From the IMG/VR virus record IMGVR_UViG_3300035698_021793, positions 1 through 26,633 of that record: a stretch of DNA of 26,633 nucleotides. The stretch is one strand, 5' to 3'. Numbering within the stretch: the first letter of the stretch is position 1; each line of letters opens with the position of its first letter. Positions 3,049 to 26,633 of the stretch are shown here, one piece after another. Source of the stretch: a virus. The position numbers were made by a program, and so were the translations under genes. The notes under the pieces were generated by a model, which worked only from the letters and a program-made list of their open reading frames with translations, had not been told where the DNA came from and searched no databases.

Positions 3049-3051
3049 GTG

Positions 3052-5313: not shown

Positions 5314-7590
5314 ATGGCACCAAATTTAAAAGCAACGGCTATAGAATCGTTCAGCATACACGATAAGAAGACGGTTGACTCAAAAACATTCGTACACACG
5401 GTTAACGATCCCAATCAACTGAACCAGTTTGCATCTTACACACCTCTGTTCACACTGTCGGCACTGAGCCAGGCAGACCTGGAAAATACCAAGACACTGT
5501 TGAACAGCAAACCACACGACATCATAATCAAGAGCGGAGGTATAGCGGACGGCAACCTTTCGAGCCACAACGAGTCATCGCAAAATGCCCGGGAGAGAGG
5601 TAGAGATCCCAACAACGACTTCAACAAAACATTAGAGCAAAATACTAGGATGGCCGCAACGTTGGGCAAAAGTTCAAGGACTTTTAAGAGGGATAGAGAT
5701 TTGTACTTCACGGATGTGACAATGAATGCCATACCGGGACTCAACGAGAAGAGGAGATTGACATCGGTGACACAGATAAAGATGACCATAGTGGAGCCAG
5801 CTGGCATCAGCCTGTTCGAGAGAATGAGGGCGGCCGCGGCCAACAACGACTATCTTGATCATCTAGATGCACCGTACCTGTTGACGGTGGAGTTCACGGG
5901 TTTCGACGAGCACGGAAAGTTAGCGCCGGCCGAAGAGAGAAAGCACATGAAGAGACTGATACCTGTAAAAATGACCGACGTGCAAGTGGAAGTGAACAAC
6001 GCAGGATCGGTATACACAGCAACGGCCATACCCTATAACGAATTCGCATACGTGGACAGATTTAACTGGCCCAGGACATCAGGAACACTATACTCTAGAG
6101 ACCAGAAATTGAACACGGTGGTCAAGACACTAGAACAAATACTGAACGACCAGAATAAAGAAGAAATGGTGTCAGCGGGTGTCAGCGTACCAGACCAGTA
6201 CGAGATCTACATAGACGAGTCCTTCAATCCTAAAGGAGTCACAATTGGAAAAGATTTTTTCAATCAGAATGCGATGGCATCACAGGCAGTGGACACCGGA
6301 GATGCAGTCATAGATTTCATGAGGATCAGTTCCTCAACAGCGATAACAAAGATACTGGAAGAAATGATGAAAGCGGACGAGAGATTCTCGGACATCACTT
6401 TTACTGAATGGAAAAGCAAAGTGGCAACGACACTGGCATCGGTACAGCAGTCAGGTGGAGAAAAAGCCGTGTTTGACACCAGCGGTGGATATGACAAGAG
6501 CAAAAGCAATCCCGACATGTATTTCAAATACTTCAGGATCAGGTCCACAGTGATTCCGATGAAAGGAGCGTTTGATCACAAGAGACAGACCAACGCCAAG
6601 AAGATCAAGTTTGTGGTGGAACCATATATGATACATGCCTACTCTCTGGCCATACCCGGCGTCAGCACAGGACAGAATTTTAAAAATTTCGTGTACAAGA
6701 CCTACAACTACATATTCACAGGGGAGAACACTGATGTTCTTGATCTCAACATAAACTACAGGGTGGCATACTTCCAGAGCAGACTCAAGGATGTGGACGG
6801 CGATAGCGGAAGAAAGAACAAATCAGCGAAAACAGAAAATGAAAAGAATAAAGGCATAACAAACCCTGTTGACGTTGAGGATCAAAGTTTCTTGTTGAAA
6901 AACAATCCCAGTCTCGTAAAATCTTCTGGGACTAATAAGACGGGAGGAGGCTTCACATTCATTGATCAGTTCCTAGACGAGTTGACACACCCATTGGCGG
7001 ACATGGTTAACATCAGGATGGAGATTCTGGGTGATCCGGCGTGGTTGGGACAGTCACAGTTCATCCCGGCAAATCCCGAACAAACAGAGGAAGGAACAAG
7101 CAGGGACAAGGACATAGCATTTTGGAGAGGAAACAAAGAGGCAATATGGGATTCAAAAAGAAAATGTTACAATGCAGACCTGGCAGAACCTATCATACTT
7201 TTGAATTTCAAGATGCCAACTGACGTAGACGACAAGCGTGGTGTATATGAGATGCAATCAGAACAACAAGCACAGTTCAGTGGACTGTACAGGGTCATTC
7301 AGGTGGAACACAACTTCAACAACGGCAGATACACTAATGTCTTGCAACTTACCAGATTCAACAACCAGGGTGTGTACATATCATCTCCGATGGACGAGTA
7401 TGTAGTCGTAAACAACAACTCGGGTGGAGGTACTGTGTTCAACAAAACAGAATACAATGCGTTCCTAGAAACTGAGGGCGGTAACCTATCTGAAGTAATT
7501 AACATAGGAAAGAAGGTTAACGACCTTGTTGGTAAAGTTACAAAAACCATAAAAAGCAGGGTCAAAAGTATAGCAAGGGGTTTTTACTAA
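5314..7590 (+). CDS. Candidate baseplate hub protein (gp27-position), 758 aa
   Basis: This large soluble protein lies directly before the gp5-like spike gene, the position expected for the gp27-type hub that forms the socket for gp5. Visible parts: an N-terminal region with SYTPLFTLSALSQ (about 41-53), then DLYFTDVTMNA and a TIVEPAGISLFERM segment followed by APYLLTVEFTGFDEHGK (about 130-205), typical of hub beta domains. Late in the protein come VNIRMEILGDPAWLG (about 560-575) and FSGLYRVIQVEHNFNNGRYT (about 650-670), which match the usual end of LysM-like hub domains (a G-Y-V-x-H strand before a T-x-L-x-R strand). It is about twice the size of T4 gp27 (391). GGGGA at 5301-5305 gives the ribosome binding site. 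Hub role is inferred from position and these motifs; direct homology to gp27 is not shown. Confidence 0.6.
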   Translation: MAPNLKATAIESFSIHDKKTVDSKTFVHTVNDPNQLNQFASYTPLFTLSALSQADLENTKTLLNSKPHDIIIKSGGIADGNLSSHNESSQNARERGRDPNNDFNKTLEQNTRMAATLGKSSRTFKRDRDLYFTDVTMNAIPGLNEKRRLTSVTQIKMTIVEPAGISLFERMRAAAANNDYLDHLDAPYLLTVEFTGFDEHGKLAPAEERKHMKRLIPVKMTDVQVEVNNAGSVYTATAIPYNEFAYVDRFNWPRTSGTLYSRDQKLNTVVKTLEQILNDQNKEEMVSAGVSVPDQYEIYIDESFNPKGVTIGKDFFNQNAMASQAVDTGDAVIDFMRISSSTAITKILEEMMKADERFSDITFTEWKSKVATTLASVQQSGGEKAVFDTSGGYDKSKSNPDMYFKYFRIRSTVIPMKGAFDHKRQTNAKKIKFVVEPYMIHAYSLAIPGVSTGQNFKNFVYKTYNYIFTGENTDVLDLNINYRVAYFQSRLKDVDGDSGRKNKSAKTENEKNKGITNPVDVEDQSFLLKNNPSLVKSSGTNKTGGGFTFIDQFLDELTHPLADMVNIRMEILGDPAWLGQSQFIPANPEQTEEGTSRDKDIAFWRGNKEAIWDSKRKCYNADLAEPIILLNFKMPTDVDDKRGVYEMQSEQQAQFSGLYRVIQVEHNFNNGRYTNVLQLTRFNNQGVYISSPMDEYVVVNNNSGGGTVFNKTEYNAFLETEGGNLSEVINIGKKVNDLVGKVTKTIKSRVKSIARGFY

Positions 7591-10019: not shown

Positions 10020-10444
10020 TGGCATACGGTGATTCAGGATCGGGTTCAGGAGCAGGTGGCTTATCAAACAAGTCTGTGACCTTCAAGGGTTTCAGTTCAC
10101 GTGCGGACAAGAAAAACTTCAAGCTGTACGATTTTGAGTGTGCCAAGCAGGATCTCATCAACAGACTGAGCATACGTAAGGGCGAAAGGGTAGAGAATCC
10201 AGAATTCGGCACCATAATATATGACGCCATATTCGAACCGTTCACAGAGGCACTCAAAGATGCCATTGTCGAGGACATCACAGCCAACCTAAATGCAGAT
10301 CCACGTATATCCACAGAGGAGATACTGGTAACAGAATCTGACAAGGGCATAGCAATACAGGCGACTATAACATATGTTCCCCTGAATATCACCGAGAAAC
10401 TGCAATTCGACTTTGATGAGAACTCACTGTCGCGCCTATCTTAA
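10019..10444 (+). CDS. 25: gp25-like baseplate wedge protein
   Basis: This 141-residue protein (T4 gp25 has 132) has the GPW/gp25 family core: residues about 38-70 read DFECAKQDLINRLSIRKGER, then ENPEFGT and a FEPF motif, followed by a helix and two strands ending in TITYVPLN. The EFGT/FEPF pair is the family hallmark (the wedge core that nucleates the sheath). The N-terminus has an added Gly/Ser-rich stretch (GDSGSGSGAGG). AGGAG at 10005-10009 lies nine bases before the ATG, inside gp5. The stop at 10444 is followed by a 52-base gap, the first real gap in the operon. Confidence 0.93.
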   Translation: MAYGDSGSGSGAGGLSNKSVTFKGFSSRADKKNFKLYDFECAKQDLINRLSIRKGERVENPEFGTIIYDAIFEPFTEALKDAIVEDITANLNADPRISTEEILVTESDKGIAIQATITYVPLNITEKLQFDFDENSLSRLS

Positions 10445-10496: not shown

Positions 10497-13400
10497 ATGG
10501 CCACAACAGATAGACAGAACAGATTACTTGTAGCGGAAGATTGGAGGAAGATCTACCAGTCATTCCAACAGGCAGATTTCAAAAGTTACGACTTCGAGAC
10601 ACTTAGAAGAACCATGGTGGCATATCTACGTGAGAACTACCCAGATGATTTCAATGACTTTGTAGAGAGCTCGGAGTACGTTGCACTGATTGATCTGATC
10701 GCCTACGTGGCTCAAGCACTTTCATTCAGGGTGGATCTTAATGCAAGGGAAAATTTCCTAGAAACGGCAGAAAGAAGAAATTCAGTTCTAAGATTGGCCA
10801 GACTTATCAACTACAATGCCAGTAGAAATAAACCTGCTACAGGACTTTTAAAAATTGACTCTATATCCACAACGCAAGATGTTGCAGACACCACAGGAAC
10901 AAATCTTGCAAACAGCACAATAGTGTGGAACGATTCAGCAAATTCAAATTACAGAGAACAGTTCACAGCGATACTGAATGCGGCCAACCAGACAGGACAA
11001 CTTTTTGGTTCACCTAGGGAGTCAGGAGCAATAGGCGGGATAGCAACAGAGGTTTACACTTTGAGTTCTAATCAGGCCGACCTTCCTATATTTTCTTTCA
11101 ACAAATCCATTGGCGGAACAAACAGACCGTTCGAGATAGTGCCAAGTTCTATAAACAATTCAGAATCAATATACGAGTCATCACCAGTGCCAGGAACAGG
11201 ACTGACATACACATACAGATCCGATGGATCCGGTGACAGCTCCAACAACACGGGTTTCTTCTTTCTCTTCAAACAGGGAATAATACAGCAGACAGAGTTT
11301 TCGGTGGACACAGCAATAACAAATTACGTCAAGAGTCTTAATGTTTCGAATGTCAACGACACCGATGTGTGGTTGTACAAGTTGGACCAGTTTGGGCAAC
11401 TGTCAGAACAGTGGACCATGGTACCATCACTGTCAGGTAACAATGCAATTTACAATTCACTGTCAAAAGCAGAACGAAACACTTATAATGTTGTAACAAA
11501 ATCAGATGACTCGATCGATCTTGTGTTCGGTGATGGTAACTTCTCAAACTTGCCATTAGGTACATTCAGAACATATCACAGGGTCAGTGACAATGCCAAG
11601 TTTGCAATACAACCAGCGGACATGCAAGGTATTACATTAACGGTTACATACGTGGATGCCAACGGTGCACAACAGATACTGACACTGACTGTAAGTCTGA
11701 AGGCATCAGTGTACAACAGTGCCGCAACAGAATCAAACGCTTCGATCAAGGAGAAGGCCGCACAGGTCTACTACTCACAGAACAGGATGATAACTGCTGA
11801 AGACTACCAAGTGGTGCCACTTTCAGCGTCACAGGAAATAGTCAAAGTGAGATCAGTGAACAGGTCGGCATCAGGCATATCCAGGGCCAAGGAAGTGCTG
11901 GATCCAACAGGTGCATATTCAAACGTGAACGTGTTCGCAGAGGACGGCATAGTTTACAGGGAGGAAAGCACACAGCAGTTCACCTTCACCTTCAACAACA
12001 GGAACGACATACAGTCAACGATTGACACATCTGTTGAAGCAAAATTAAAACAAGCATACGCTAGACAGTTCTACTATTTGAAATATGCAACAAAGGATCT
12101 GAGTTCTCTGTCAGCAACATGGAATTCAACCACGACGGGAACAAACACCAACACAGGATACTTCACATCAGGTGGAGCATTGGTTGTTGGAGATTTCGCA
12201 ACGTCAAATTTGAAATATGCCAAAACAGGTGCATTGATCAAATTCACATCACCGGACACAAGGGAATTTTTAAACGACACATTAGTAACGGCAGGAACAG
12301 ACAACGCCGAAGATAGAGCATGGGCCAAAGTCGGTGCAGTTGTGTTGGATGGTGCTAATTCGGGTGTGGGTAATCTAGAGGACGGAACAGGTCCAATCAC
12401 GCTCAACGACATACTACCAAACGGTGCTGTACTCAATGCAGTCATCCCCGCTTTCACAACATCATTCTCAGCAACTCTTGAAGCAGACATAGTAAACAGG
12501 ATCGAAGCATACGAGGAATTTGGCCTGAGATACGATCAAGATTCAGAAACATGGAAAGTTATAACAAGCACAAACCTAAGTACCAGCACAGTGTTTGATA
12601 CGGCAGGTGCAGGCAGTACGGCAGGAACCAATGTAGACGCTAGTTGGTGGTTCAAGTTCACCAATGATGGGAACACATACACAGTAGTGTACAGGAAACT
12701 GGAATACATATTTGAATCAGAGGGACAGAACAAGTTCCATTATGATGCACAGGAAAAAATATACGACTACAAGACGGGCAAGAGTGTAAAGGACACAGTA
12801 AAAATTCTCAAAACGAACTCTATCGTTTCAACAGGCAACAGCATAGGTTATCCTATAACATGGCAGGTTGTGGACACAGTGACTGAAGCAGACGGTTTCC
12901 AGGACAACAGGAAAGTCAAGGTTGGCTTCTATGATGATGACGATGACGGTGTTGTTGACAATCCAGAAATTTTTGACATACATGTTGAACCGGATACCTC
13001 TATTTCGACTAAATTCGTGTTCTTTGAAAAATACATATCTTACGACACAATAGAGAGATACAGATTCTATGCCGCAACAAATTTCATCGTGGCTGAGAAC
13101 GAAGCAGACATCAATGTGAACACTACCACGTACACAGACGGTCAACTGTTCTATTTCTATGATGGCGCAGAGGACGTGATCAAGAAATACAGTTCAACTA
13201 CGAACACACTCTCAACTACAACTGATTACATTGCGAGAAGAGGCAGGAGTTCGGTCAGCTTCCAGTACAGGCACAATGCCGGACAAGAGACCAGGATCGA
13301 TCCCAGTGTGTCAAACATCGTGGATGTGTACATGCTGGAAAGAACTTATGACAATTTATTTAGAGTATGGTTACAGGACGGAGGAACCAAACCCGAAGCT

Positions 13401-13979
13401 TCAACATCAGATCAAATGAGAATATCGTATTCGGGTACACTTGACCAATTGAAATCGTTGTCAGACCAGATCATCTACCACCCAGTGAAATACAGGATAC
13501 TGTTTGGCACGAATGCAGATGAACAATTACAAGCAACGTTCAAGGTTGTTAAGAACACAAAAACAAATGTCACAGACGCAGTGATAAAGACAAGGGTCAT
13601 TGCCGCGATAAATGAATTCTTTGCACTAGACAACTGGGATTTTGGTGACGCATTTTACTACACAGAACTAGCCGCTTACATACACAACCAACTTGCTCCA
13701 GATCTACTGACAGCAGTGATTGTGCCAAACCAATCAGGACAGGCATTTGGGTCTCTGTTCCAGATCAATTCAGCGGCAGACGAGATTTTTATCAGTGGGG
13801 CCACCGTTGATGATGTTTCAATCATAACTGCACTAGGAGCCAACCAATTGGCGGTTTCCGGTACAGTGGTTACATCTACACCAACTGCCACAACAAATAC
13901 GACAACAGGATCAGCAGTGTCAGGCTCTACTACAACAGGTTCGGGATCAAGTACCGGCAGTAGTGGGTCAGGATACTAA
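10497..13979 (+). CDS. 6: gp6-like baseplate wedge protein, enlarged (1160 aa)
   Basis: In T4, gp6 forms the inner ring of wedges around the hub. The family signature is near the N-terminus (about residues 55-110): YPDDFNDFVESSEYVALIDL, then a SFRVDLNARENFLETAERR helix and RLINYNASRNKPATG. Around residues 970-1110 are conserved strands (VDVYMLERTYDN, HPVKYRILFGTNADEQLQA) and a helix with INEFFALDNWDFGDAFYYTE, the typical gp6 end. The protein is much longer than T4 gp6 (about 660). The extra middle part is beta-rich and includes an Asp-rich loop DDDDDGVVDNPE near residue 815 that resembles a calcium loop. The last about 40 residues are a Thr/Ser/Gly tail. No ribosome binding site precedes the ATG. 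Its stop overlaps the next start as TAATG. Confidence 0.9.
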   Translation: MATTDRQNRLLVAEDWRKIYQSFQQADFKSYDFETLRRTMVAYLRENYPDDFNDFVESSEYVALIDLIAYVAQALSFRVDLNARENFLETAERRNSVLRLARLINYNASRNKPATGLLKIDSISTTQDVADTTGTNLANSTIVWNDSANSNYREQFTAILNAANQTGQLFGSPRESGAIGGIATEVYTLSSNQADLPIFSFNKSIGGTNRPFEIVPSSINNSESIYESSPVPGTGLTYTYRSDGSGDSSNNTGFFFLFKQGIIQQTEFSVDTAITNYVKSLNVSNVNDTDVWLYKLDQFGQLSEQWTMVPSLSGNNAIYNSLSKAERNTYNVVTKSDDSIDLVFGDGNFSNLPLGTFRTYHRVSDNAKFAIQPADMQGITLTVTYVDANGAQQILTLTVSLKASVYNSAATESNASIKEKAAQVYYSQNRMITAEDYQVVPLSASQEIVKVRSVNRSASGISRAKEVLDPTGAYSNVNVFAEDGIVYREESTQQFTFTFNNRNDIQSTIDTSVEAKLKQAYARQFYYLKYATKDLSSLSATWNSTTTGTNTNTGYFTSGGALVVGDFATSNLKYAKTGALIKFTSPDTREFLNDTLVTAGTDNAEDRAWAKVGAVVLDGANSGVGNLEDGTGPITLNDILPNGAVLNAVIPAFTTSFSATLEADIVNRIEAYEEFGLRYDQDSETWKVITSTNLSTSTVFDTAGAGSTAGTNVDASWWFKFTNDGNTYTVVYRKLEYIFESEGQNKFHYDAQEKIYDYKTGKSVKDTVKILKTNSIVSTGNSIGYPITWQVVDTVTEADGFQDNRKVKVGFYDDDDDGVVDNPEIFDIHVEPDTSISTKFVFFEKYISYDTIERYRFYAATNFIVAENEADINVNTTTYTDGQLFYFYDGAEDVIKKYSSTTNTLSTTTDYIARRGRSSVSFQYRHNAGQETRIDPSVSNIVDVYMLERTYDNLFRVWLQDGGTKPEASTSDQMRISYSGTLDQLKSLSDQIIYHPVKYRILFGTNADEQLQATFKVVKNTKTNVTDAVIKTRVIAAINEFFALDNWDFGDAFYYTELAAYIHNQLAPDLLTAVIVPNQSGQAFGSLFQINSAADEIFISGATVDDVSIITALGANQLAVSGTVVTSTPTATTNTTTGSAVSGSTTTGSGSSTGSSGSGY
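13864..13976 (+). repeat. Thr/Ser/Gly low-complexity C-terminal tail of gp6
   Basis: The last about 37 codons encode almost only Thr, Ser, Gly, Ala and Val (segments such as TATTNTTTGSAVSG and GSGSSTGSSGSGY). It looks like a flexible linker or adhesion tail rather than folded wedge sequence. It is immediately followed by the start of the giant protein, with no gap. Confidence 0.7.
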
Positions 13980-16900
13980 TGGCTGACAATACTACAAACA
14001 CATCATCCAACAACGAAGTAGTCAAGCAAGGCAACAATGAGTACAGGAGGACTGTACAACATCTACCGGCGTTCTACAGGACAGACAGCAACCAGAGATT
14101 CCTGTCAAGCACACTGGATCCTTTGGTACAGAAAGGTGAACTGGAGAGATTGGATGGCCACATCGGTAGGCAGGATGCCTATACCAGGGCAGTAACAGAC
14201 AGATATATTACAGCTACCAACAGAGACAGGATGGCATACCAGCTGGAACCTGCTGTGACATACACAGATAGAGACACAACATCAATAAATCCAGAGGACC
14301 AGGTCAAATTTACAGGAACGTATGACGACTACATTAACCAGCTCAATTATTTTGGCGGCAAGGTGGACAACCATGACAGGTTGAACAAGGAAACTGTTTA
14401 CAGTTGGAACCCGGCGATAGACTATGACAAGTTGGTCAACTACAGGGAATACTACTGGATACCGAACGGTCCAAATGCAATAGAGATAGACTCGGTGGGA
14501 CCGTCGGCAGTGGCAGAATACAATGTCAGCAAGTGGCCGGAAGATGGCAGTTCTACAAAAGCATGGAACTTCCCACACAAGGAGGACGAGAGAAATCCGA
14601 TAATAAAATTGTACAGGGGTAACACATACAAATTTAACGTAAACGCAAAAGGACATCCTTTCTACATAATGACCGAACCATACAAGAGTCAGGTTGCAGA
14701 AGATGGTTCAACATCAACACTTTACTCAACAGGTGTAACCAACAACGGAGCTGATTACGGTACAGTGACATTCACAGTTCCACTGACAGGTGGCACAGAC
14801 ACATTGTACTACCAGTGTGGTAACCATGATTCCATGTACGGAATACTACAGATCAGAAACATAAACACACTGGCGAAAATCAATCCCGAGGATGACATAA
14901 TAGGAGTCAAGGATTACAGCTTAAGAACATTGAATCTTTCTAACGGAATGAAAGTAAAATTTACAGCAGGACAACTTGCAACGAATTCACCATATCTTAA
15001 CAAGGAATACTATGTGGAGGGTGTTGGGGAATCTATAACACTGACCAATGTTGACGATCTTATAACACCGGCAAGTTATGCCACAGAAAGTACCATACTC
15101 TACGATTCGGTTGATTATGACTCGAGGCCTTATGCCCTGGCATACTACACACCCGACGCCAAGGATCATATAACAATAAAGAGGGATTCTCTTGATCAGA
15201 ACGCATGGTCCAGATACAACAGATGGTTCCACAAGTCTGTGATAGATGAAACGGCTAGGATAAATGGTTTCACAGCGAACCTGGACGAGGATGACAGGGC
15301 CAAGAGACCTATTATTGAATTTGATTCGGGACTTGCACTTTACAACCACGGTACCGTGGCCAAAACATCTGTAACACTTTATGACACAGTGACGACAGAT
15401 GCATTCAGTGATGTCGTGCTCCAGACAGGTTACATAGTGGATGGTATCACACTTGCAGAAGGTATGAGGGTGATATTCTCAGCAGACACGGATCCCACAG
15501 TAAACGGCAGGATATACAAAGTCAGCTTTGCGACAGCAGGCGACAGCACACAGGTGATCTCACTGACACAAGAGGCAGACGGAGTTCCAGCTGACAAGGA
15601 CAGTGTGTTTGTAGAATTTGGAACAAAGAATCAAGGCAAGACCTTCTATTACAACAATGCAACCACTGCCTGGATTGAATCACAGCAGAAGACAGGAGTA
15701 AACCAACAGCCATTGTTTGGTATGTGGGACGATAAACACACAAGTTTCGATGATACAACAACATATCCAAACTCGACATTTGCTGGAGCGAAGGTTTTTG
15801 AATTTGCAACGTCTGACACAGCAACCACTGACACGGTCCTGGGCATAAAGGTAAAATACAACACAATTAACAATGTTGGCGACATAGTTTTTGAATCGGA
15901 TCATACATCGGGAACATTCACTTACAAATCCGGATCTTCCACTGTAACAAAGAATCTAGCAGAAGGACATCTTCACTACACAACAAGTAGGGAAACTCAC
16001 AACTCAAGGAGCGCCTGGATAAAAAGGACAAACGAGAGTAAACAGAGGGTCATGAGGACTTTCATCGTGGACGATACAGAGAAGCAACTGTTTCCTATAG
16101 ATTTCTACAAAAATTCTGCAGACTTAACAGACCTAGAAGTTTCAGTTTCTGTGAACGGTTCTAGGAAAACACTCACAACGGATTACACACTTGTTGACGG
16201 TACAACAAACAGATACGTAAAATTTGTCAAGGCATTGGCAGTCAACGATCAGATACGTGTTGCTGGTTATAGCAGTGCCGACAAGATAGTTAACAAAGGG
16301 ATATACGAAGTACCAGAAAATTTAGCTACTAACAGCTTGAACAAACAGTTGGGAACATTCACCTTCGGACAGATACTGAACCATGTCAGGGATATATTTG
16401 ACAAGAACCAAGATGTAACAGGTGCTATACCGGGAGAAACAAATCTCAGAGACAAACCCAATGCGAGACTGAAAGGTGGTAGCATACACCAACACGAATC
16501 ACCATTAGTTCCGGCAGTGTTTGGTCTGATAGACCAGGACTCTAACACAATATCGGCAATAGACCATGCCAACCAGGAATACGAGAAATGGTACAATGCA
16601 TTCCTGACACATGCAACAGGTACGGCGTATGAAGGGGTTGCCGCAGACAGGGTTGACGAGATTGTGACAGCAATAACACCAGGCAGGAACAGCACTTTCC
16701 CATTCTATTACGAGGACATGCTAGGTTGGGGAGAAAATGTCAGCACAAGAACTTACACAGTACTTGGAGCGTCACAGACGGATTACGCACTTGATTCACA
16801 ACACAATATAACAACACCCAGCAACAGGGCAGTTTATGTTTATCTAAATGATGTGCAATTAATTTTAGGCACGGACTACACGTTCAGTACAACAGACGAC

Positions 16901-19900
16901 AGTGTGAACATATCAGCCACACTTGCGGAAGGCGACATAGTTAAGATTAAGGATTACACAGACACAACAGGCAGTTACATGCCACCGAGTCCGACTAAAC
17001 TCGGAATGTATCCAAAATACAAACCGGAATCATTCACAGATACAACCTACATAACTGACACAGCAGTGATCAGGAAACACGATGGATCGATCATAAAAGC
17101 ATACGGAGATGAGAGAGATGATTTAATAATTGAATTAGAGAAAAGGATTTATAACAATCTTAAGACAGCACATGATCCGGCCTTACTCGACATACACGAT
17201 GTAATGCCCAGTGCATTCACATCAACAGAATACACACTGCAAGAAATTAATGATGTTGCGGCAACTGACTTCTACACATGGTCAGGCAGGAACAGTGTGC
17301 AGTACATCAACAACACAAGTTTTGTTGAAGGTTCTCCATTCACATACAACTATGCGAGAAGCACGGATAGACTGAACATTCAATCTCTTCCGGGACACTG
17401 GAGAGGCATATACAACTACTTCTACGACACAGACGCTCCGCATGTGAGACCATGGGAGATGTTGGGACATTCAGAGAAGCCAACGGACTGGGAAACAATA
17501 TACGGCCCAGCTCCGTACACATCGGCTAATGACGTACTTTGGGATGCCATTGCAACGGAACCAGGCAGGTATGGCAAGCCAGAAATTAAAACTTATCTAC
17601 CGGTCGATGCATCAGGTAATCTTCTAGATCCACTTGCCGCAGGACTTGTGGACAACTTTGACATACCGGGCAGGCAGGCCTCTTGGAAGTTCGGAGATCA
17701 TGGACCAGCAGAAACATCGTGGAGGAGATCTAGTGCATATCCTTTCAGTGTAATAAAGACACTGGCATTGACTAAACCGGCTAAATTCTTTTCAAACCTG
17801 TTTGACCCTTCTAGACTAAAAACTAACACAGCAGGAAATCAGATTGACACAGACACAGGTATCAGGAAAACACTTGCCACATCCAGGTACCACCTGGAAA
17901 CAGTGACTGACAATAATACTGGGGTGACAACAAGGTACCAGACAGCAGGATACCAGCCATTTGTGGTCAACTATTTGATATCACGTGACTTAGATGTTAC
18001 AGCATTCTACTACGACAAGATGAAAAATCTTTCCACACAGTTGGCATACAAACTGGGAGGATTTACAGACAAGGACAACTTAAAAGTATTGACTGATTCT
18101 GTATCACCGGGATCAACGTCAGGTTCAAAATTTATTCCGGACGAGAACTATAAGATATTGTTTAGGACATCTAATCCTGTTAAAAGTTTCCAGTACTCGG
18201 GCGTGTTGATAGAGAAGAACAATGATGCGACCAGTGACGGTTCTACGCTTTTAGGCGGATACAAGATACTAGGATACTCGACTACAAAACCATATTTCAA
18301 ATTTAACTACCCTGTCAAGACGACAACACACTCAGCAGTCTCGGTAGAGGGAACAACACCGGTCAAACGATACACTTCTTTCCAGGAAAATACACAGACC
18401 ATCCCTTATGGTTACGTGTTCAACACAATTCAGGATGTAACTGATTTCCTTTTTGGCTATGGCCACTGGTTGGAAAGCCAAGGATTCAAATTTAACAGGT
18501 ATTCGAATGAACTGAAAGAAACACTGAACTGGGCAAACGCAGTCAGGGAGTTCCTGTTCTGGACCACGCAGGAATGGGCACCAGGATCTGCAGTGACAGT
18601 ATCACCAGCGGCAGATGGGTTTGAACTTGATACTGACAACAGCATAGTTGGCAAATTAAGGAACCTGGCAGGCGATTACTCATTGCTGGACGCAGGAGGA
18701 AGGAAAATAGATATAGGAGAGATATCAACAAAACGTATTGGCAAGACGTTTGACTTATCGATCAAGTCAGACAGCATAGGTCTTTACAACGTGGCGCTGA
18801 ACACAGTACAGAAAGAGCACATATTGTTGTTCGATAACAGCACAGTATTCGCAGACATCATATATGATCCGTTCACAGGATTTAGACAGCAACGATTAAA
18901 ACTTGTAGGATGGAAGACGGCAGGGTGGAATGGTGACTACTACGCTCCAGGTTTTGTATTTGATTCCGCACAGGTTTCATACTGGAAAGCAAACACAGAC
19001 TACAGGATAGGCGATACAGTAGAGTACCAAGGAAAGTTTTATGTTGCAACAGCGAATCATAATTCGACAGCAACGTTTGAAACGGTAAACTGGAAATATA
19101 AAATAGAAAAACCGGCACCGCAATTGATTCCAAACTTTGATTACAAAATATCACAGTTCAATGATTTCTATAATCTAGAGTCAAACAACTTTGATGATTC
19201 ACAACAGCAACTGGCACAGAGACTTATAGGATACCAGTCTAGGGATTACTTGGAAAATCTTTTTGTCAATGATGTATCACAGTACAAGTTCTACCAAGGA
19301 TATATCAGGGAGAAGGGCACACAGAATGCAATAGACAAGATTCTAAAGGCACAGTACGAGGGAGAGGATATCAATTTGGAATTGTATCCGGAATGGATGA
19401 TCAGGACAGGCAGATTTGGAAATATAGATTCAGTGGAGAACATACAGATAACACTGAAAGACAACGAGGTATATTCAAATCCACAGAGTGTGGAACTGTT
19501 TAACACAACTAACGAGACCAAGGAGTTCACGAGATCTCTTTCAGTTAGCAAAGATCAGATGTACTACAAGCCGGTTGAGTACACAGCTTCTACAACTTTC
19601 AGCAGGATAGACTACACCAAAGAAGGTGTAGATAGGGAACATGCACAGGTCTACAAGACAGCAGGATATCCACAACTTACACAGGTACAACACACTGCAT
19701 TTAATATAACGGATATCAGTAATCTGGATATGAATGCTATAACAACGAATGATCTTGTGTGGGTGGCAAATAAATCCAACAACGACTGGGACGTGTTTAG
19801 GATAACCAGCGCCAGACTCAAGATAGCTCAAGTACAGTTAATTAATGATTCCACACAGTTGGAACTGACCTTCACCAGTTCACATGGATTGACAGGAAGC

Positions 19901-22900
19901 TCACCAACAAAACTGGCCGACTACTTTGGAATATCAAACAGTCAAGAACTGACGCTGAACGGTGTGTACCAAGTTTCAAGTGTGACAGATCACAAGACTG
20001 TGATAATAGATTACACTGGAAATACAGCATTCATACCAACACTGGAAGATGGATCAACGGCAGACAGCTACGGAAATATTTACAAATTCATATCAGTGAG
20101 ATTGGCATCCATGGACAATGTGAATGACCTGATCAACTATGCTGACTACAAAGATAAGGATGAGGCCATAGAAAAAGAAGGCGACAAGGTGTTCTCTGAC
20201 ACAGACAGCTCAGGACTGTGGCAGGTGTACGAGAAACAGGATCCGTACGTACCAAGTATAATACTGTCTCCAGACGTATCAACAGCAGACCAAGAATTTG
20301 GTCACAACATAGTGGCGAGGAATGATGGTAGGACAGTGGTAATATCAGCACCGGGCAAGACACAAGGTGAGGTACACTTCCTGTTCAGATCTAATACAGC
20401 GGCAGGAACGCTGTTTCAGACACAGTTGACTGCAACAATGACTGAAAATGATGATGCCACTAGCAGATTGGGTGAGTCACTGTCTATGAGTACAGATGAA
20501 AACTTTGTTGTGGCAGGTGCACCATTCACCAACACAATAAGTTCAGATGGCAGTACTAGATACGCAGACAGCGGGCTGATCAAGATCTACCTATGGGAGC
20601 CAACAACATTCAAGTATGGATTACTGAACACCCTAACACCGCCAGAGGATGGTTCGACTACAGATTCGGCACAGGCACAGAACTTCGGATGGTCTCACAA
20701 GATTTCGGAACCAGGATTGAGTTCTGGAAGAAGCACAGCAACGAAATATCTTTTCGTTGGAGCACCGGGACATGGTGATGACGTGGGACAGGTTTACATG
20801 TATGAGTGGGGCATCGGTGCAGATGGATCAACATACGACACATGGACGCAGAATTTAACGATCACATCAGCTGATCCAGGAGCAGGGAAAAGATTTGGAC
20901 ACAGGTTAGAAGCCAATGACAACGGTGACATATTAGCAGTCAGCTCACTAGCACCGGGACAGGCAGGTAAAGTGGAGATATACATAAGAAGTTCACAAGC
21001 AAATGACGGTAGCACAGATCATTCGTTCACTCTTGCACAGACACTGGAAGGTATCAGTGCAGACGGGTCGTCACTGAACACAGCGTTTGGTGATTCGATG
21101 ACAATGACCAACGACGGAACTGTCTTGATAGTAGGTGCACCTGGGGTTGATGACGGTAGCACAGGACAGATAGATGGTGGAGCAGTTTACTACTACAAAT
21201 GGAATGCAGACGGTTCTACAAACACATACACATTACAACAAACAATAGCGGCACCGGATTCGCAGTCAAACATGAAGTTTGGAACAAGTGTTGACATAAA
21301 CAACACAGGCACGAGAGTAGTGATAGGTGCAGAAAAGGCCGCGACACCTAGGGAAATGAAAATTGACTCGGGCGAGACCACTTTTGACCTACAGGACACA
21401 ACAATTGGTGATTTCAATACAGGCTCAGGAGCGGCATACACGGCCACTATGTACAACACAAAATTCATGATAGATGACAGGATGGTAACCGATAACACAT
21501 CAGAAGACGATGACTTTGGGAAAGGTTTATGTATTATCGATAACACCGTGTTTGTAGGTGCCCCGGACGATGAAGGGAATACTGCTATATCAAATGACGG
21601 AACGGTGGCCTGCTATGACCTATCAGTCAGCGGAGAGTACGCCTGGAAGAACATAGCTTCAGAGACAGCATTGATAGACATAGACAAACTTGGACAGGTG
21701 TTTGAATTCAACAACAAAACCAAACAGGTACTAGATCACTATGACCTTTATGATCCAATACAGGGAAGGATACTGGGAGTCGCAGACAGGGAAATAAACA
21801 TCAAGACAAATTGGGATCCGGCGGTGTACAACACAGGAACAAATGCCAACACCAAGACTCCGTGGGCAGAGAGTCACTTGGGTGAGGTATGGTGGGATCT
21901 TTCAAAAGTTAAATGGACATGGTACCAGCAAGGTGATCAGAAATTCAAAGCAAACAACTGGGGTAAAACTTTCCCAGGATCTAGCATAGACATATACGAG
22001 TGGACGGAATCCACGTTTCTACCAAGCGAATGGCAGTTGAGAACAGGAACGCAGGGAGGCACCAGCCAGGGAATAACCGGGACACCTTTGAATCCTGATG
22101 ACTCAAACTACACAGTAATACAGAAATATAATTCTAGATTAGACACTTTGGTGAATTACTATTACTACTGGGTGAAGAACAAAACAACAGTTCCATCTAA
22201 CAGTGTCGTTCAAAGAAAGAACTCGACGGGATCTGTAGCAACCCTGATAGCAAACCCTCAGGGATCAGGATTCAGCTACTATTCAGTGACGGACACCAAC
22301 AAACTGTTGCTGAACAATGTTGGCACACTATCAGGCAGTGACATAGTATTGAACATAGACATTAGGACCAACACGTTTGATGGTGATGCACACTCGGTAT
22401 GGAAGCTGGCCAAAGAGGGAGACAAGGATTGGAGACCAGGAACAGTGATAGAGACACGTTGGTGGGATTCACTGATAGGGCAGAACAGCACAGGTGATCT
22501 AGTGCCTGACATTACTCTTCCAGTGAACGAGAGATACGGAAACAGTGTGAGACCTAGACAGAGTTGGTATGTGGACAGGTATTCAGCACTGAAAGAAATC
22601 ATAGACTACACTAACATCGAGTTGAAAAAAATACAATTGGGTGGGACAATCAATCTTACAAATCTGAATTCTAAAGAGCCAGAGCCAACTGCCCAGAGCC
22701 TGGAATGGGACACGACCATAGACACATATGCGGAACTAACTTACATCGACACAAGAGATCTCTCCGGAACAGTGAGATACCTGGTCAGAGCAGACGAAAC
22801 ATCAAATGGTTACTGGGCGATATACACATGGGATGGCACAGAATTCACTAGGACAAAATTACAGACTTACGACACATCCGGTTACTGGAGTTACACAGAC

Positions 22901-25900
22901 TGGTATGGCACGGATCCTGCTGTTCATGAGATGATACACAATGAAAACACTCCTATTGACAAACAGGTAACTTATGAATACGAGCTAGACACACTGGATC
23001 TTGCCATAGGAAAACATGTCAAGGTCACTAGTGCGGACACAGGTGGATGGAAACTGTTCATGAAGACGGCAGATGGGTACATAAATGTTGGCACAGAGAA
23101 CGGAACAATAAGGATATCAACGAAACTGTATGACTACACACAGGACGCTACAGGTTTCGCAGGTGAAGATACATTTGACGACAACTTCTTTGACCAATCT
23201 CCTGCAACGGAAACAAGGAAAATACTTACAGCACTGAGGGATGACATATTCATAAATGATTTTGCTGTGGAATACAACACACTGTTCTTCACAGGATTGA
23301 GGAAAGTGTTGGCTGAACAGACTTACGTTGACTGGATGTTCAAGACATCATTCATCAATGCCAAGAATTCTGTTAGAGAATTGGACCAGAGGAAGGCATA
23401 CACGACAGGCACGGACAGCTGGATAGAGAGCTACATCAATGAAGTGAAACCTTTCCACACAAAATTGAGAGAATACAGACTGGGACACACAGGAACCGAC
23501 ACACAGGACGGTTTATTCACAGACTTCGACAGTCCAACATTCTACGATGCGAAAACAGGCAAGATCAGAGCATTAAATGTTGACAGCGACACAGACAAAC
23601 TTACTGAGTATCCTTGGCAGATGTGGAATGACTATCACAAGAAATATGTTTCGTCTGTCACTGTAAGCAAGGGCGGCTCCGGATACACTAAAACTCCAAC
23701 AGTTACCATAGTTGGTGGAACAGCAGGAGCAACAGGGCCATTCCAGATACTGGCAACAAGCTCAAGTGGATCAACGTCAGGCAGTTATGGTTACTTCTAT
23801 CCATTGTTCACTAGTCAGATACAGGCAGAGATATATGATTCACAGAATAGTGGGGCAGGCACGACAAACAGCTACACGTTCGATGGTTACACAGGCACGT
23901 TCTATGGACCAAGCACGAGCATAACAGCCCAATCAACAATTTCGGGTGCATTCAAGATGTACACAACACCTACCACGACAGCGGCCACTGCCACGGCAAC
24001 AGTTGTTGGAGGCACAGTGACAAAAATTACAGTGACAGGCATTGGTGCAAACTACACTTCAACACCCATGGTGGTGTTAACTGGAGGTACTGATGATGGT
24101 TCAACGCCATCGGACACGGCCAGAGCTTATGCGAACCTGAACAACGACCTTGTCAGAGACATAGATACAACAATAAAATTTGATAGAGTTTCAAGTACAT
24201 CAAGTGTGGTCGACTGGACGGCATCCACGAGCTATGTGTATGGACAACTGATCAGATACAAAAACGAATTATACAAAACAACAAGTGCCTTCACTGCAAC
24301 AACAGACTTCAACGACAGCACAAACAACTTGTACAAGGTGTACGGTGATGAGACAGGACTAACAGCGGCAGACAGAACAAAAGGTTTCTACACACCAGGT
24401 ACAGGAATGGCAGGGAATGAACTGTCGCAGGTCATGTCAGGTGTTGACTATGGTGGAACAATGGTCACAGGATTGCTGTTCTCACAAGGTCAAGGATGGG
24501 ACAAAGAAGGTTGGTATGACTTCCCATGGGACACTTATGGTGAATCTAGGGTCAAGGCCTTCACGGCCGACGGAACAACAGGAACGTTCACTATCACGCC
24601 GGCACCAGCTGTGAGCGATGTTTACCAGGCCTATGTGACGTCTGATGACAGCACAAGGAAAAAGTTAGACGGTGTATTCAGGGGTGATGGATCAACAACA
24701 GTATTCACAATATCAGTTGTACCAGATGCAGGTGCACTAGTGGAGTTCATACCTTTCGACGATGATGGTGTACTGACCCCAACAGATGATAGGACAATTG
24801 ACTCAATAATCAAGGGTGGACTTTTTGGTTCAGCAATGGGATCAGCACCAAGCGACATATTACTGGAAGGCGATGATTTCATATCACCAGAAACCGGCTA
24901 TGCACCGGAGGAAACTGTACCAGGACAACTATTTGACACATTAGACATCAAAGTTTACACATCTCCAGAGTCAGGAGTGCCATTTATTTCAAGTAAAAAT
25001 CACAGAGGGGATGGATCGACTTTGACATTCAGTATTGGCGATTACCCCGGAACACTAGGCTCTGTCACAGTTTCAGTAAATGGTGCAACACAGAAAGTTT
25101 CATTGGACGGATCAACAGCAGGAGATTATTCAGTAGACATCGCAGGAAAAACAATAACATTTTTAAGCACGGCACCAGCGGCTAACAGCGTGGTGGCAAC
25201 AAGAGTTTTTGCAATAAGCGGAGAAAATTATAGGGTACTGGATCAGTACACAGGCGACGGAAGCACAGTGACATTCACCACATCGACTAGAGGTGAATTT
25301 AATTTAGATTCGACTGTGTCAGACATGTACATCACCATCGACGGCGTGCCGACCACATCATTTACAACGACTACAACGGCCAATGCAGTCACAGTTACAT
25401 TCAGTTCTGCACCGGCGGCAGATGCATTCGTGCAGATTGCAGGGTTCAACAAGTCTACAACAAGCACACGAAGTTTTGCCAGCGTAAGAAATGAAAAAAT
25501 TACGTATGACGGATCAACAAACAGATACACTTTAACTTATCCACCAGGATCCATAGGTCCACTGTCAGGCTTGACAATAATTGAATTGAATGGCAAAGTC
25601 CTTAGAGGCCCAGACGTAAGTTACTACACGGGTGACGGAAGCACTTACAGTTTCAATCCAGTGGCCGGATTGGGTGACGATTCAACGATAGATCCAGCCA
25701 AGGTTATCACAAGTGCCTCACAGATACAAGTACACATAAATGGTGTGTTACAGGAATTGAACACTGACTACGTTGTGAACCTAGGAGCATATGATAAAAC
25801 TGCAGACGTAACCACAACACTTGCTGACACAAACACACTAACTGCAGACACTATAGGTTCTCCAGAAAGGATAGAACTTGTACAGCCAGCATCAAGCACA

Positions 25901-26633
25901 GACTTGGTAGCGATAACAACTTTAACCGATAACCAATATTACAATGAAGGGTCGGACATAATTTTAGATGTGGCACAGATAGATGCAGACTCAAGCACAC
26001 TGGGATACCAGTTGAGTGAGAATGATGTTCTGTCAGTGACTACATTCAACAACGCACTTGGAATGAAATTGAGAAGAGAGGTTCTCGAAGGCAGAACAAA
26101 CAATGTGTTCAAATTAAGATTTGAACCTTTGAACGGCGGATATACTTACGTGTGGTTGAACGGAGATCAACAGACACAGGGACATGACTTTACAATTAGT
26201 GGCAACACAATTACATTCGTTGGCAAGACAATAACAGCATCAGACAGACTCGACGTGATGTACTTTGCAACAGAATCTGCCGCGAGTGCAACAGGATTCA
26301 GAATATTCAAAGACATGCTGAATAGGACTTTCTACAAACGTATCAGCAAAACAGCAACAACGGAACTAGTTGATGATTTGACAGATACAATTAACACATT
26401 ACAAGTCAAAGACGGGACTGTGTTACCAGAACCTGATGCGTCAAGCAACATGCCAGGTGTTGTCTTCATTGACAAGGAAAGAATAGAATATTTTACCAAG
26501 AACGGAAACACGTTGGGACAACTTAGACGTGGAACACTTGGAACAGGAATTAAGGACCATAGCGATGGCACACTAGTGGTAGATGCCAGCGGAACTCAAA
26601 CTATACCTTATGCGGACACAGTGTACACCAACA
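13979..26633 (+). CDS. Giant virion structural protein, over 4218 aa, incomplete at the right edge (peripheral baseplate/adsorption protein)
   Basis: I translated this frame codon by codon from ATG at 13979 to the window end and found no stop: 4218 whole codons, still open. It occupies the place of T4 gp7 and the wedge/fibre genes after gp6. Parts in order: a conserved N-terminal region (about 23-160, with LPAFYRTDSNQRFLSSTLDP and FREYYW-like YREYYW); a cupredoxin-like domain (207-294); a segment with NAWSRYNRWFHKSVIDETAR and RPIIEFDSGLALYNHGT (about 405-455); SYMPPSPTKLGMYPKYKPE and a DDLIIELEKRIYNN helix (about 1000-1060); a carbohydrate-binding-like module (1668-1708); a helix-rich part at about 1740-1820; seven FG-GAP blades (2106-2549); a conserved helical part (3093-3169); Gly/Tyr beta repeats; a second carbohydrate-binding-like module (3411-3456); and GDGST beta repeats from about 3525. 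It is soluble with no signal peptide. The start is coupled to gp6 by TAATG, with AGGA at 13970-13973. I believe similar giant proteins follow gp6 in marine T4-like phages. Virion role is well supported, exact job inferred. Confidence 0.85.
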   Translation, partial: MADNTTNTSSNNEVVKQGNNEYRRTVQHLPAFYRTDSNQRFLSSTLDPLVQKGELERLDGHIGRQDAYTRAVTDRYITATNRDRMAYQLEPAVTYTDRDTTSINPEDQVKFTGTYDDYINQLNYFGGKVDNHDRLNKETVYSWNPAIDYDKLVNYREYYWIPNGPNAIEIDSVGPSAVAEYNVSKWPEDGSSTKAWNFPHKEDERNPIIKLYRGNTYKFNVNAKGHPFYIMTEPYKSQVAEDGSTSTLYSTGVTNNGADYGTVTFTVPLTGGTDTLYYQCGNHDSMYGILQIRNINTLAKINPEDDIIGVKDYSLRTLNLSNGMKVKFTAGQLATNSPYLNKEYYVEGVGESITLTNVDDLITPASYATESTILYDSVDYDSRPYALAYYTPDAKDHITIKRDSLDQNAWSRYNRWFHKSVIDETARINGFTANLDEDDRAKRPIIEFDSGLALYNHGTVAKTSVTLYDTVTTDAFSDVVLQTGYIVDGITLAEGMRVIFSADTDPTVNGRIYKVSFATAGDSTQVISLTQEADGVPADKDSVFVEFGTKNQGKTFYYNNATTAWIESQQKTGVNQQPLFGMWDDKHTSFDDTTTYPNSTFAGAKVFEFATSDTATTDTVLGIKVKYNTINNVGDIVFESDHTSGTFTYKSGSSTVTKNLAEGHLHYTTSRETHNSRSAWIKRTNESKQRVMRTFIVDDTEKQLFPIDFYKNSADLTDLEVSVSVNGSRKTLTTDYTLVDGTTNRYVKFVKALAVNDQIRVAGYSSADKIVNKGIYEVPENLATNSLNKQLGTFTFGQILNHVRDIFDKNQDVTGAIPGETNLRDKPNARLKGGSIHQHESPLVPAVFGLIDQDSNTISAIDHANQEYEKWYNAFLTHATGTAYEGVAADRVDEIVTAITPGRNSTFPFYYEDMLGWGENVSTRTYTVLGASQTDYALDSQHNITTPSNRAVYVYLNDVQLILGTDYTFSTTDDSVNISATLAEGDIVKIKDYTDTTGSYMPPSPTKLGMYPKYKPESFTDTTYITDTAVIRKHDGSIIKAYGDERDDLIIELEKRIYNNLKTAHDPALLDIHDVMPSAFTSTEYTLQEINDVAATDFYTWSGRNSVQYINNTSFVEGSPFTYNYARSTDRLNIQSLPGHWRGIYNYFYDTDAPHVRPWEMLGHSEKPTDWETIYGPAPYTSANDVLWDAIATEPGRYGKPEIKTYLPVDASGNLLDPLAAGLVDNFDIPGRQASWKFGDHGPAETSWRRSSAYPFSVIKTLALTKPAKFFSNLFDPSRLKTNTAGNQIDTDTGIRKTLATSRYHLETVTDNNTGVTTRYQTAGYQPFVVNYLISRDLDVTAFYYDKMKNLSTQLAYKLGGFTDKDNLKVLTDSVSPGSTSGSKFIPDENYKILFRTSNPVKSFQYSGVLIEKNNDATSDGSTLLGGYKILGYSTTKPYFKFNYPVKTTTHSAVSVEGTTPVKRYTSFQENTQTIPYGYVFNTIQDVTDFLFGYGHWLESQGFKFNRYSNELKETLNWANAVREFLFWTTQEWAPGSAVTVSPAADGFELDTDNSIVGKLRNLAGDYSLLDAGGRKIDIGEISTKRIGKTFDLSIKSDSIGLYNVALNTVQKEHILLFDNSTVFADIIYDPFTGFRQQRLKLVGWKTAGWNGDYYAPGFVFDSAQVSYWKANTDYRIGDTVEYQGKFYVATANHNSTATFETVNWKYKIEKPAPQLIPNFDYKISQFNDFYNLESNNFDDSQQQLAQRLIGYQSRDYLENLFVNDVSQYKFYQGYIREKGTQNAIDKILKAQYEGEDINLELYPEWMIRTGRFGNIDSVENIQITLKDNEVYSNPQSVELFNTTNETKEFTRSLSVSKDQMYYKPVEYTASTTFSRIDYTKEGVDREHAQVYKTAGYPQLTQVQHTAFNITDISNLDMNAITTNDLVWVANKSNNDWDVFRITSARLKIAQVQLINDSTQLELTFTSSHGLTGSSPTKLADYFGISNSQELTLNGVYQVSSVTDHKTVIIDYTGNTAFIPTLEDGSTADSYGNIYKFISVRLASMDNVNDLINYADYKDKDEAIEKEGDKVFSDTDSSGLWQVYEKQDPYVPSIILSPDVSTADQEFGHNIVARNDGRTVVISAPGKTQGEVHFLFRSNTAAGTLFQTQLTATMTENDDATSRLGESLSMSTDENFVVAGAPFTNTISSDGSTRYADSGLIKIYLWEPTTFKYGLLNTLTPPEDGSTTDSAQAQNFGWSHKISEPGLSSGRSTATKYLFVGAPGHGDDVGQVYMYEWGIGADGSTYDTWTQNLTITSADPGAGKRFGHRLEANDNGDILAVSSLAPGQAGKVEIYIRSSQANDGSTDHSFTLAQTLEGISADGSSLNTAFGDSMTMTNDGTVLIVGAPGVDDGSTGQIDGGAVYYYKWNADGSTNTYTLQQTIAAPDSQSNMKFGTSVDINNTGTRVVIGAEKAATPREMKIDSGETTFDLQDTTIGDFNTGSGAAYTATMYNTKFMIDDRMVTDNTSEDDDFGKGLCIIDNTVFVGAPDDEGNTAISNDGTVACYDLSVSGEYAWKNIASETALIDIDKLGQVFEFNNKTKQVLDHYDLYDPIQGRILGVADREINIKTNWDPAVYNTGTNANTKTPWAESHLGEVWWDLSKVKWTWYQQGDQKFKANNWGKTFPGSSIDIYEWTESTFLPSEWQLRTGTQGGTSQGITGTPLNPDDSNYTVIQKYNSRLDTLVNYYYYWVKNKTTVPSNSVVQRKNSTGSVATLIANPQGSGFSYYSVTDTNKLLLNNVGTLSGSDIVLNIDIRTNTFDGDAHSVWKLAKEGDKDWRPGTVIETRWWDSLIGQNSTGDLVPDITLPVNERYGNSVRPRQSWYVDRYSALKEIIDYTNIELKKIQLGGTINLTNLNSKEPEPTAQSLEWDTTIDTYAELTYIDTRDLSGTVRYLVRADETSNGYWAIYTWDGTEFTRTKLQTYDTSGYWSYTDWYGTDPAVHEMIHNENTPIDKQVTYEYELDTLDLAIGKHVKVTSADTGGWKLFMKTADGYINVGTENGTIRISTKLYDYTQDATGFAGEDTFDDNFFDQSPATETRKILTALRDDIFINDFAVEYNTLFFTGLRKVLAEQTYVDWMFKTSFINAKNSVRELDQRKAYTTGTDSWIESYINEVKPFHTKLREYRLGHTGTDTQDGLFTDFDSPTFYDAKTGKIRALNVDSDTDKLTEYPWQMWNDYHKKYVSSVTVSKGGSGYTKTPTVTIVGGTAGATGPFQILATSSSGSTSGSYGYFYPLFTSQIQAEIYDSQNSGAGTTNSYTFDGYTGTFYGPSTSITAQSTISGAFKMYTTPTTTAATATATVVGGTVTKITVTGIGANYTSTPMVVLTGGTDDGSTPSDTARAYANLNNDLVRDIDTTIKFDRVSSTSSVVDWTASTSYVYGQLIRYKNELYKTTSAFTATTDFNDSTNNLYKVYGDETGLTAADRTKGFYTPGTGMAGNELSQVMSGVDYGGTMVTGLLFSQGQGWDKEGWYDFPWDTYGESRVKAFTADGTTGTFTITPAPAVSDVYQAYVTSDDSTRKKLDGVFRGDGSTTVFTISVVPDAGALVEFIPFDDDGVLTPTDDRTIDSIIKGGLFGSAMGSAPSDILLEGDDFISPETGYAPEETVPGQLFDTLDIKVYTSPESGVPFISSKNHRGDGSTLTFSIGDYPGTLGSVTVSVNGATQKVSLDGSTAGDYSVDIAGKTITFLSTAPAANSVVATRVFAISGENYRVLDQYTGDGSTVTFTTSTRGEFNLDSTVSDMYITIDGVPTTSFTTTTTANAVTVTFSSAPAADAFVQIAGFNKSTTSTRSFASVRNEKITYDGSTNRYTLTYPPGSIGPLSGLTIIELNGKVLRGPDVSYYTGDGSTYSFNPVAGLGDDSTIDPAKVITSASQIQVHINGVLQELNTDYVVNLGAYDKTADVTTTLADTNTLTADTIGSPERIELVQPASSTDLVAITTLTDNQYYNEGSDIILDVAQIDADSSTLGYQLSENDVLSVTTFNNALGMKLRREVLEGRTNNVFKLRFEPLNGGYTYVWLNGDQQTQGHDFTISGNTITFVGKTITASDRLDVMYFATESAASATGFRIFKDMLNRTFYKRISKTATTELVDDLTDTINTLQVKDGTVLPEPDASSNMPGVVFIDKERIEYFTKNGNTLGQLRRGTLGTGIKDHSDGTLVVDASGTQTIPYADTVYTN
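14597..14860 (+). other. Cupredoxin-like domain in the giant protein, full copper-ligand set
   Basis: Residues 207-294 read as a small Greek-key beta barrel: LYRGNTYKFNV, GHPFYIMT, TGVTNNGADYGTVTFTVP, then LYYQCGNHDSMYGILQIRN. This is the layout of plastocyanin-type domains. The expected ligands are His226, Cys280, His283 and Met286, in a C-x2-H-x2-M loop. The loop is two residues shorter before Met than in plastocyanin (C-x2-H-x4-M). All four ligands are present, so metal binding is plausible. Copper binding itself is inferred. Confidence 0.7.
18980..19102 (+). other. Carbohydrate-binding-like module 1 (CBM5/12-type pattern)
   Basis: Residues 1668-1708 show the pattern W-x-A-x-T-x-Y-x-x-G-D-x-V-x-Y-x-G-x-x-Y followed by an H and a closing W (YWKANTDYRIGDTVEYQG, then KFYVATANHN and NWKYK). 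This matches the small chitin-binding-type fold found in chitinases and phage tail proteins. It suggests glycan contact, but the module may only be structural. Confidence 0.5.
20294..21625 (+). repeat. Seven consecutive FG-GAP-type repeats, predicted seven-bladed beta-propeller
   Basis: Residues 2106-2549 contain seven units of the form FG-x-S-x(5-10)-hhhGAP-x(5-15)-G-x-hYhh. The opening motifs are EFGHNIV, RLGESLS, NFGWSHK, RFGHRLE, AFGDSMT, KFGTSVD and DFGKGLC. The matching second motifs are VISAPG, VVAGAPF, LFVGAPG, LAVSSLAPG, LIVGAPG, VVIGAEK and VFVGAPD. Five keep the GAP or SAP core; blades 4 and 6 are divergent. Blade 6 carries an insertion of about 40 residues. The closest pattern I know is the FG-GAP_2 type, which folds as integrin-alpha-like propellers. 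The unit length is about 50-75 residues. Confidence 0.75.
23255..23485 (+). other. Conserved helical segment of the giant protein
   Basis: Residues 3093-3169 are mostly helical and low in Thr/Gly, unlike their surroundings: FFTGLRKVLAEQTYVDWMF, FINAKNSVRELDQRK, and WIESYINEVKPFHTKLREYR. Among the proteins I know, such a segment recurs in the giant structural proteins of marine T4-like phages. It is probably an oligomerisation or baseplate-docking part between beta-rich regions. Confidence 0.5.
23654..24088 (+). repeat. Two Gly/Tyr beta repeats (G-x-GYT-x-x-PTVTI-x-GG type)
   Basis: Two copies flank a Ser/Thr/Gly-rich spacer: VSKGGSGYTKTPTVTIVGG (from 23663) and VTGIGANYTSTPMVVLTGG (to 24088). 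Each is preceded by a short strand (SVTV, KITV). This is a recurring unit of phage tail-fibre proteins that probably stacks as part of a beta-helix. The two copies differ in sequence, so this is an old duplication. Confidence 0.55.
24209..24346 (+). other. Carbohydrate-binding-like module 2 (CBM5/12-type pattern)
   Basis: Residues 3411-3456 repeat the pattern of module 1: W-x-A-S-T-x-Y-x-x-G-x-L-I-x-Y-x-x-x-L-Y-K (VDWTASTSYVYGQLIRYK, then NELYKTTSAF). It lacks the histidine and closing Trp seen in module 1, having a Tyr there instead. It lies about 1700 residues away from module 1. Confidence 0.4.
24551..26269 (+). repeat. Array of beta-sandwich repeats opening with (G)DGST
   Basis: Residues from about 3525 to 4097 hold about seven repeats of roughly 55-100 residues. 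Each begins like GDGSTxxFTI, then a strand with hxVxVNGVxQ, then DYxVxGxTITFxSAPAA, then a closing strand hxVxxF. Openings: FTADGTTGTFT, FRGDGSTTVFTI, HRGDGSTLTFSI, YTGDGSTVTFTT, TYDGSTNRYTLT, YTGDGSTYSFNP, and a degenerate seventh (FKLRFEP). A further module, IDKERIEYFT...LRRGTLGTG, follows and is cut by the window edge. Units of this kind are common in phage fibre and peripheral baseplate proteins. Confidence 0.6.

Follow-up and report, generated by a model that had tools for sequence, protein, structure and literature searches.

The window, by which we mean the whole stretch of DNA analysed (26,633 bases, a 'linear' fragment in IMG/VR), comes from a marine virus of bacteria, most likely a jumbo-type myovirus distantly related to T4. 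Its genes follow the order gp46, gp47, gp55 (minus strand), a structural gene, gp53, a further structural gene, the gp5 hub, gp25, gp6, and a giant open frame. This order is identical in the jumbo phages PA5oct, RaK2, and CBB. The baseplate genes of the window are the following:

5011..5310, + strand: gp53-like wedge protein (phrog_7145)
7590..10019, + strand: gp5-like hub protein (phrog_13211)
10019..10444, + strand: gp25-like wedge protein (PF04965)
10497..13979, + strand: gp6-like baseplate wedge protein, 1160 aa (phrog_10646, E 1.5e-287)
13979..26632, + strand: giant, putative baseplate wedge protein in the gp7 position (phrog_10938, 1118 bits), 3' end cut by the contig

The gp6-like protein aligns with T4 gp6 (hhalign, E 3e-4 over 315 columns), and its stop overlaps the start of the giant by one base at 13979. 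The gp5-like hub has a weak match to Peptidase_S74 (intramolecular chaperone) at residues 733-801 (E 7.9e-4), and its C-terminus also weakly matches phrog_6121. Downstream of the giant, the near neighbour L008 has an adjoining gene of 241 aa (12173-12898 in that locus, phrog_11259) that is conserved in close relatives, and genes of ~200-240 aa occur at or near the position just after the giant in more distant ones. The tail-fibre cluster of L008 also includes (17259-18480) an aspartyl/asparaginyl beta-hydroxylase-like and a short-chain-dehydrogenase-like gene.

The giant frame (13979-26632, plus strand) starts with ATG and runs unstopped over 4218 aa up to the end of the contig. Since the linear record itself stops there, at 26,633 bases, this end is the contig edge and not the end of the gene. 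Eight merged relatives, 76-96% identical to the window over the full length, encode the complete giant in one frame each (4,281-4,341 aa); two of the eight have the same length and share 81.7% identity with the window. The preliminary description of the locus had proposed extending the contig rightward to find the stop, and the place of the stop was estimated through the relative L008, which is 95% identical to the last 611 aa of the window in the best segment and 87.1% identical over the whole aligned gene. Because L008 has its stop ~109 codons beyond the end of the window, we estimate that the full giant would have roughly 4,330 aa and a mass of ~478 kDa. One full-length relative has a mass of 476.7 kDa. 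The part within the window already amounts to 466.6 kDa, in line with the chain of more than about 450 kDa that the preliminary description had announced.

A wider search gave at least 594 relatives, of which 80 loci were retained. Complete frames were found in 44 of these 80 further loci, with lengths between 3,676 and 6,436 aa (median 4,626); the longest among the matches listed is a single frame of 6,436 aa and 699 kDa (L175, from 5640). Compared with three relatives, pN/pS lies between 0.14 and 0.45 in every 470-codon block of the giant, and purifying selection acts along its entire length. These full-length frames and pN/pS values confirm the claim of one frame of more than 4218 codons directly after gp6. 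They also exclude the refuting scenario named with that claim, a sequencing error fusing frames or a chimeric contig. The window stops within the frame, which would leave room for such an artefact. However, the same single frame recurs in many separately assembled contigs, 44 times complete, as well as in isolated phages, and selection is seen in every block, so that we regard an artefact as ruled out for all practical purposes.

The profile match of the giant to phrog_10938 extends over five stretches, and the PHROG label of this family is 'virion structural protein'. Its giants include PA5oct gp355 (3,857 aa), RaK2 ORF070w (3,326 aa), CBB_236 (3,340 aa), Atu_ph07 gp180 (4,449 aa), Vibrio 2.275.O (3,771 aa), and SCTP-2 gp140 (3,807 aa). 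The giants of these six isolates are homologous to that of the window; the alignments cover ~2,900-3,260 residues, with identities of 24-29%. Several have been found in virions, which supports the earlier proposal that the very long chain is a virion protein. Mass spectrometry of CBB virions yielded 21 unique peptides of CBB_236, at a coverage of 7.72% (PMC5259590), and the record of PA5oct gp355 is marked ESI-MS/MS, i.e., as a virion protein. The phAPEC6 protein gp245 (381.88 kDa), listed beside the wedge protein gp244, gave 17 virion peptides at 7.6% coverage (PMC7247149); from its place and size, it is probably a homologue of the giant. Because peptide coverage in these studies is only ~8%, the giant may be cut into pieces in the virion.

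We aligned the giants of the six jumbo phages with those of three distant metagenomic relatives. Conserved blocks (~1-165, 361-1865, and 2581-3180) are separated by variable inserts (~170-300 and 1870-2560), and conservation is poor after residue 3180. With the structure models and profile matches, this divides the chain as follows:

13979..14473, + strand: aa 1-165, N-terminal core (LPAFYRTD...) with conservation across six jumbo phages, which we propose as the first piece of the gp7 core
14480..14881, + strand: aa 168-301, inserted domain with a predicted cupredoxin fold (model, fold search)
14882..16978, + strand: aa 302-1000, largely conserved core (alignment), with many modelled strands up to aa 700
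16976..19588, + strand: aa 1000-1870, most conserved core (model mean pLDDT 83.7)
18968..19117, + strand: aa 1664-1713, small CBM5/12-like (chitinase-type) module (Pfam E 1e-9)
19196..19513, + strand: aa 1740-1845, proposed gp7 core with FYQGYIREKGT (profile match to cyanophage gp7)
19586..21658, + strand: aa 1870-2560, variable insert carrying FG-GAP-type repeats, for the most part absent from RaK2 and CBB
21719..23518, + strand: aa 2581-3180, third conserved core block (alignment)
23519..26632, + strand: aa 3181-4218, C-terminal part of poor conservation, in which DGST motifs recur (alignment)

The CBM5/12-like module was matched in eight out of ten family members, and structure matches show its resemblance to modules that the phages Milano and 7-7-1 and the Anabaena injection system have in their baseplate or fibre chains. 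The FG-GAP repeats lie near aa 2418, and the C-terminal part ends near a conserved ERIEYFTKNGN..LRRGTLGT stretch. Repeats of the type GGxGYTxxPxVxIxGG are common to the end of the third core block (22643-23728) and the giant gp7 of S-RIM2 (hhalign E 1e-5). Sequence searches against solved structures gave no match with the raw giant chain, only CBM-type matches and one weak tail-fibre match with the second core, and one weak tailspike match with the third. A PDB fold search with the model of aa 1000-1870, in which the KGT region has low confidence, retrieved, among the matches listed, only the CBM-like module and no gp7, which leaves room for a gp7 fold.

The position of the giant offers the first indication of its identity. 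It is encoded directly after a gp6-type gene, as gene 7 follows gene 6 in T4 and I follows J in P2. Giant genes at this position are also found in Kyanoviridae, where they are labelled gp7, 'baseplate wedge initiator', or structural and range from 3,884 to 6,395 aa: S-RIM8 (6,395 aa), S-RIM2 (6,378), S-T4 (4,749), S-CAM7 (4,314), ACG-2014f (4,225), DSL-LC03 (4,107), and S-CAM9 (3,884). A tblastn comparison of the window giant with these proteins revealed no similarity apart from the cupredoxin-like segment. Profile comparisons go further. The motif FYQGYIREKGT of the window giant (aa 1771-1781, with the lysine at 1779) is conserved in jumbo phages; cyanophage gp7 has FYSAKG-type motifs in a core that itself matches T4 gp7 (E 2e-9), T4 gp7 has FYSTKG at 734, and P2 gpI has HKGT in the corresponding place. 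The invariant K-G-T of the giant aligns with the KG of cyanophage gp7 in a comparison that scores 28.2, a value reached by none of 200 column shuffles (maximum 22.0), and the match spans only ~40-110 columns (E 0.0016). When the cyanophage gp7 core was scanned along the whole giant, the best windows fell within 1601-1920, which holds aa 1700-1840, and the full S-RIM2 giant aligned with the second core in the same KGT register. The direct comparison with T4 gp7 also gave the corresponding register, yet 11 out of 200 shuffles scored as high. At the other end of the putative core, 5 out of 100 shuffles reached the score of aa 1-165 against the N-terminus of cyanophage gp7, and the alignment is no more than weakly suggestive of these segments being counterparts.

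Searches with single-protein profiles were less informative. Profiles of T4 gp5-gp12 and gp53 gave nothing significant on the giant, in a setting where the control of gp6 against gp6 worked. The Tail_P2_I HMM did not match the giant, nor did it match T4 itself, and the P2 gpI homologues in IMG/VR are near-identical and thus too narrow for a profile. In summary, the place of the gene supports the identification as gp7 well and the sequence supports it moderately, and we hold this identification with moderate confidence overall. Because the KGT core matches cyanophage gp7, we read the giant as a gp7 inflated by inserted domains. The preliminary description had put the chain in the place of gp7, in agreement with its position after gp6 and with the alignment of aa 1740-1845 to the cyanophage protein. 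Our main reading is that the frame encodes a gp7-type wedge protein with a small gp7 core and long insertions that bear modules, with a probability of about 0.7.

Could the giant be something other than gp7? It might be a host-contact or whisker protein that is associated with the wedge and encoded after gp6, with a KGT match that arose by chance. The register-consistent match to the cyanophage gp7 core, above all 200 shuffles, argues against this, and so does the gene order, which is the same in P2, T4, cyanophages, and jumbo phages. Moreover, the jumbo phages viewed have no other gp7 candidate beside gp6. We therefore deem this reading unlikely, even if it fits with a public annotation that says merely virion structural protein, with the presence of accessory CBM, cupredoxin, and FG-GAP modules, with the lack of a direct T4 gp7 match, and with the unexplained tail hairs on CBB and phAPEC6 (PMC5259590, PMC7247149). 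We also considered that the CBB tail hairs are this giant, an idea for which we found no positive evidence.

A different question is how much of the baseplate periphery the chain has taken over. The preliminary description suggested that it stands in place of gp7, gp8, gp9, and gp10, of which the gp7 part is supported and the gp9/gp10 part is not. The N-terminal module of T4 gp9/gp10 is encoded by separate genes directly downstream of the giant in three relatives (G002, G004, and G005), in PA5oct a gene of its own is noted as T4-like gp10, and several separate fibre-like genes follow the giant in the close relatives of the window. For gp8 the picture is more ambiguous. A PF09215 search did not detect it in the jumbo phages bearing the giant, whereas it does detect a separate gp8 in the cyanophages with a giant gp7. 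This would be expected if one chain had absorbed gp7 together with gp8, gp9, and gp10, and the gene after the giant being on the other strand in RaK2 and CBB also points in this direction. However, none of the profiles of gp8, gp9, gp10, gp11, and gp12 found a matching stretch in the giant. Given this and the separate genes, we think such a fusion quite improbable, and retain the reading of an inflated gp7.

The most peculiar of the insertions is at aa 168-301. Its predicted fold is a Greek-key beta-sandwich that Foldseek matched to rusticyanin (E 5.5e-6), and the model superimposes on the cupredoxin domain of copper nitrite reductase with Z 10.4 and an rmsd of 2.1 over 97 residues. The sequence contains a complete set of type-1 copper ligands, H226, C280, H283, and M286 (codons at 14654, 14816, 14825, and 14834), with the spacing C-x2-H-x2-M. 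All four ligands are kept in 17 of the 71 aligned relatives. The other 54 keep the region without the full set, and in 40 a serine replaces the cysteine; on a quick tree of 65 of the 71 rows, the distribution of the set needs three changes. The region is largely missing from the giants of RaK2, CBB, PA5oct, SCTP-2, and Vibrio 2.275.O. The cupredoxin-like segment has matches in 326 phage records, almost all from cyanophages. In S-RIM2, a gp9-type protein (L300, 39406-40638), which is a tail-fibre connector, ends in a similar domain with H...C-x2-H-x2-M, so that this phage has the domain in a separate protein and the window has it in the giant. Our literature search did not find cupredoxins described in phage virions, which does not prove their absence. 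We tentatively propose, against the odds as we see them, that the giant gp7 might bear a working type-1 (blue) copper centre on the virion exterior, as a redox- or copper-responsive element of the baseplate. If this is true, the loss of ligands in most relatives would imply that the copper centre is a lineage-specific function. A domain with a copper site on a virion protein allows a cheap and concrete test, whose answer may be surprising.

T4 gp7 is a monomer within the wedge, present in six copies, and belongs to the pin along with gp10 and gp11; its domain A swings ~45 degrees outwards when the baseplate changes state on contraction (PMC3004832). The inferred parts of our model of the giant are gp7 identity, six copies, placement in the baseplate, and contact with the host. 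The gp7 core (aa 1-165 and the KGT block at ~1740-1845) would sit with the gp6 dimer in the six wedges, and the insertions that separate and follow the pieces of the core would build the outer wedge as arms bearing surface-binding modules and sockets for fibres. By analogy with T4, six giants of ~478 kDa would make up much of the wedge periphery. The accessory modules, namely the cupredoxin fold, the CBM5/12-like module, the FG-GAP-type repeats, and the variable C-terminal part, probably hold fibres in place and make contact with the surface of the host, and the products of the separate downstream fibre genes might attach to the giant.

These results connect the jumbo-phage giant, a virion protein so far unexplained, with the gp7 slot in the wedge, and they tell structural biologists what exactly to expect in baseplate maps. 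The preliminary description had seen in the giant a different way of building the baseplate periphery. It is not a way peculiar to this window: many jumbo phages and Kyanoviridae encode a giant after gp6. Such genes were already known, and it is the gp7 assignment that improves on public annotation. The giant directly follows gp6 in the window as in PA5oct, RaK2, CBB, Atu_ph07, and Vibrio 2.275.O. It is longer in the window than in the listed jumbo isolates, Atu_ph07 excepted, and differs from theirs by the additional cupredoxin insert with copper ligands and by a longer FG-GAP region. This insert shares its predicted fold and four ligand residues with known cupredoxins (rusticyanin, the copper nitrite reductase domain, two-domain laccases); unlike these, it is located inside a phage virion protein. 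The gp7 giants of Kyanoviridae resemble that of the window in their position after gp6, similar size, single frame, KGT core, and GGxGY-type repeats. T4 gp7 (1,032 aa) and P2 gpI (176 aa) are 4 to 25 times smaller. With the jumbo giant tied to the gp7 slot, T4 gp7, P2 gpI, the gp7 of cyanophages, and the giants of jumbo phages may be regarded as a single protein whose length, through insertion of modules, varies between 176 and over 6,000 residues.
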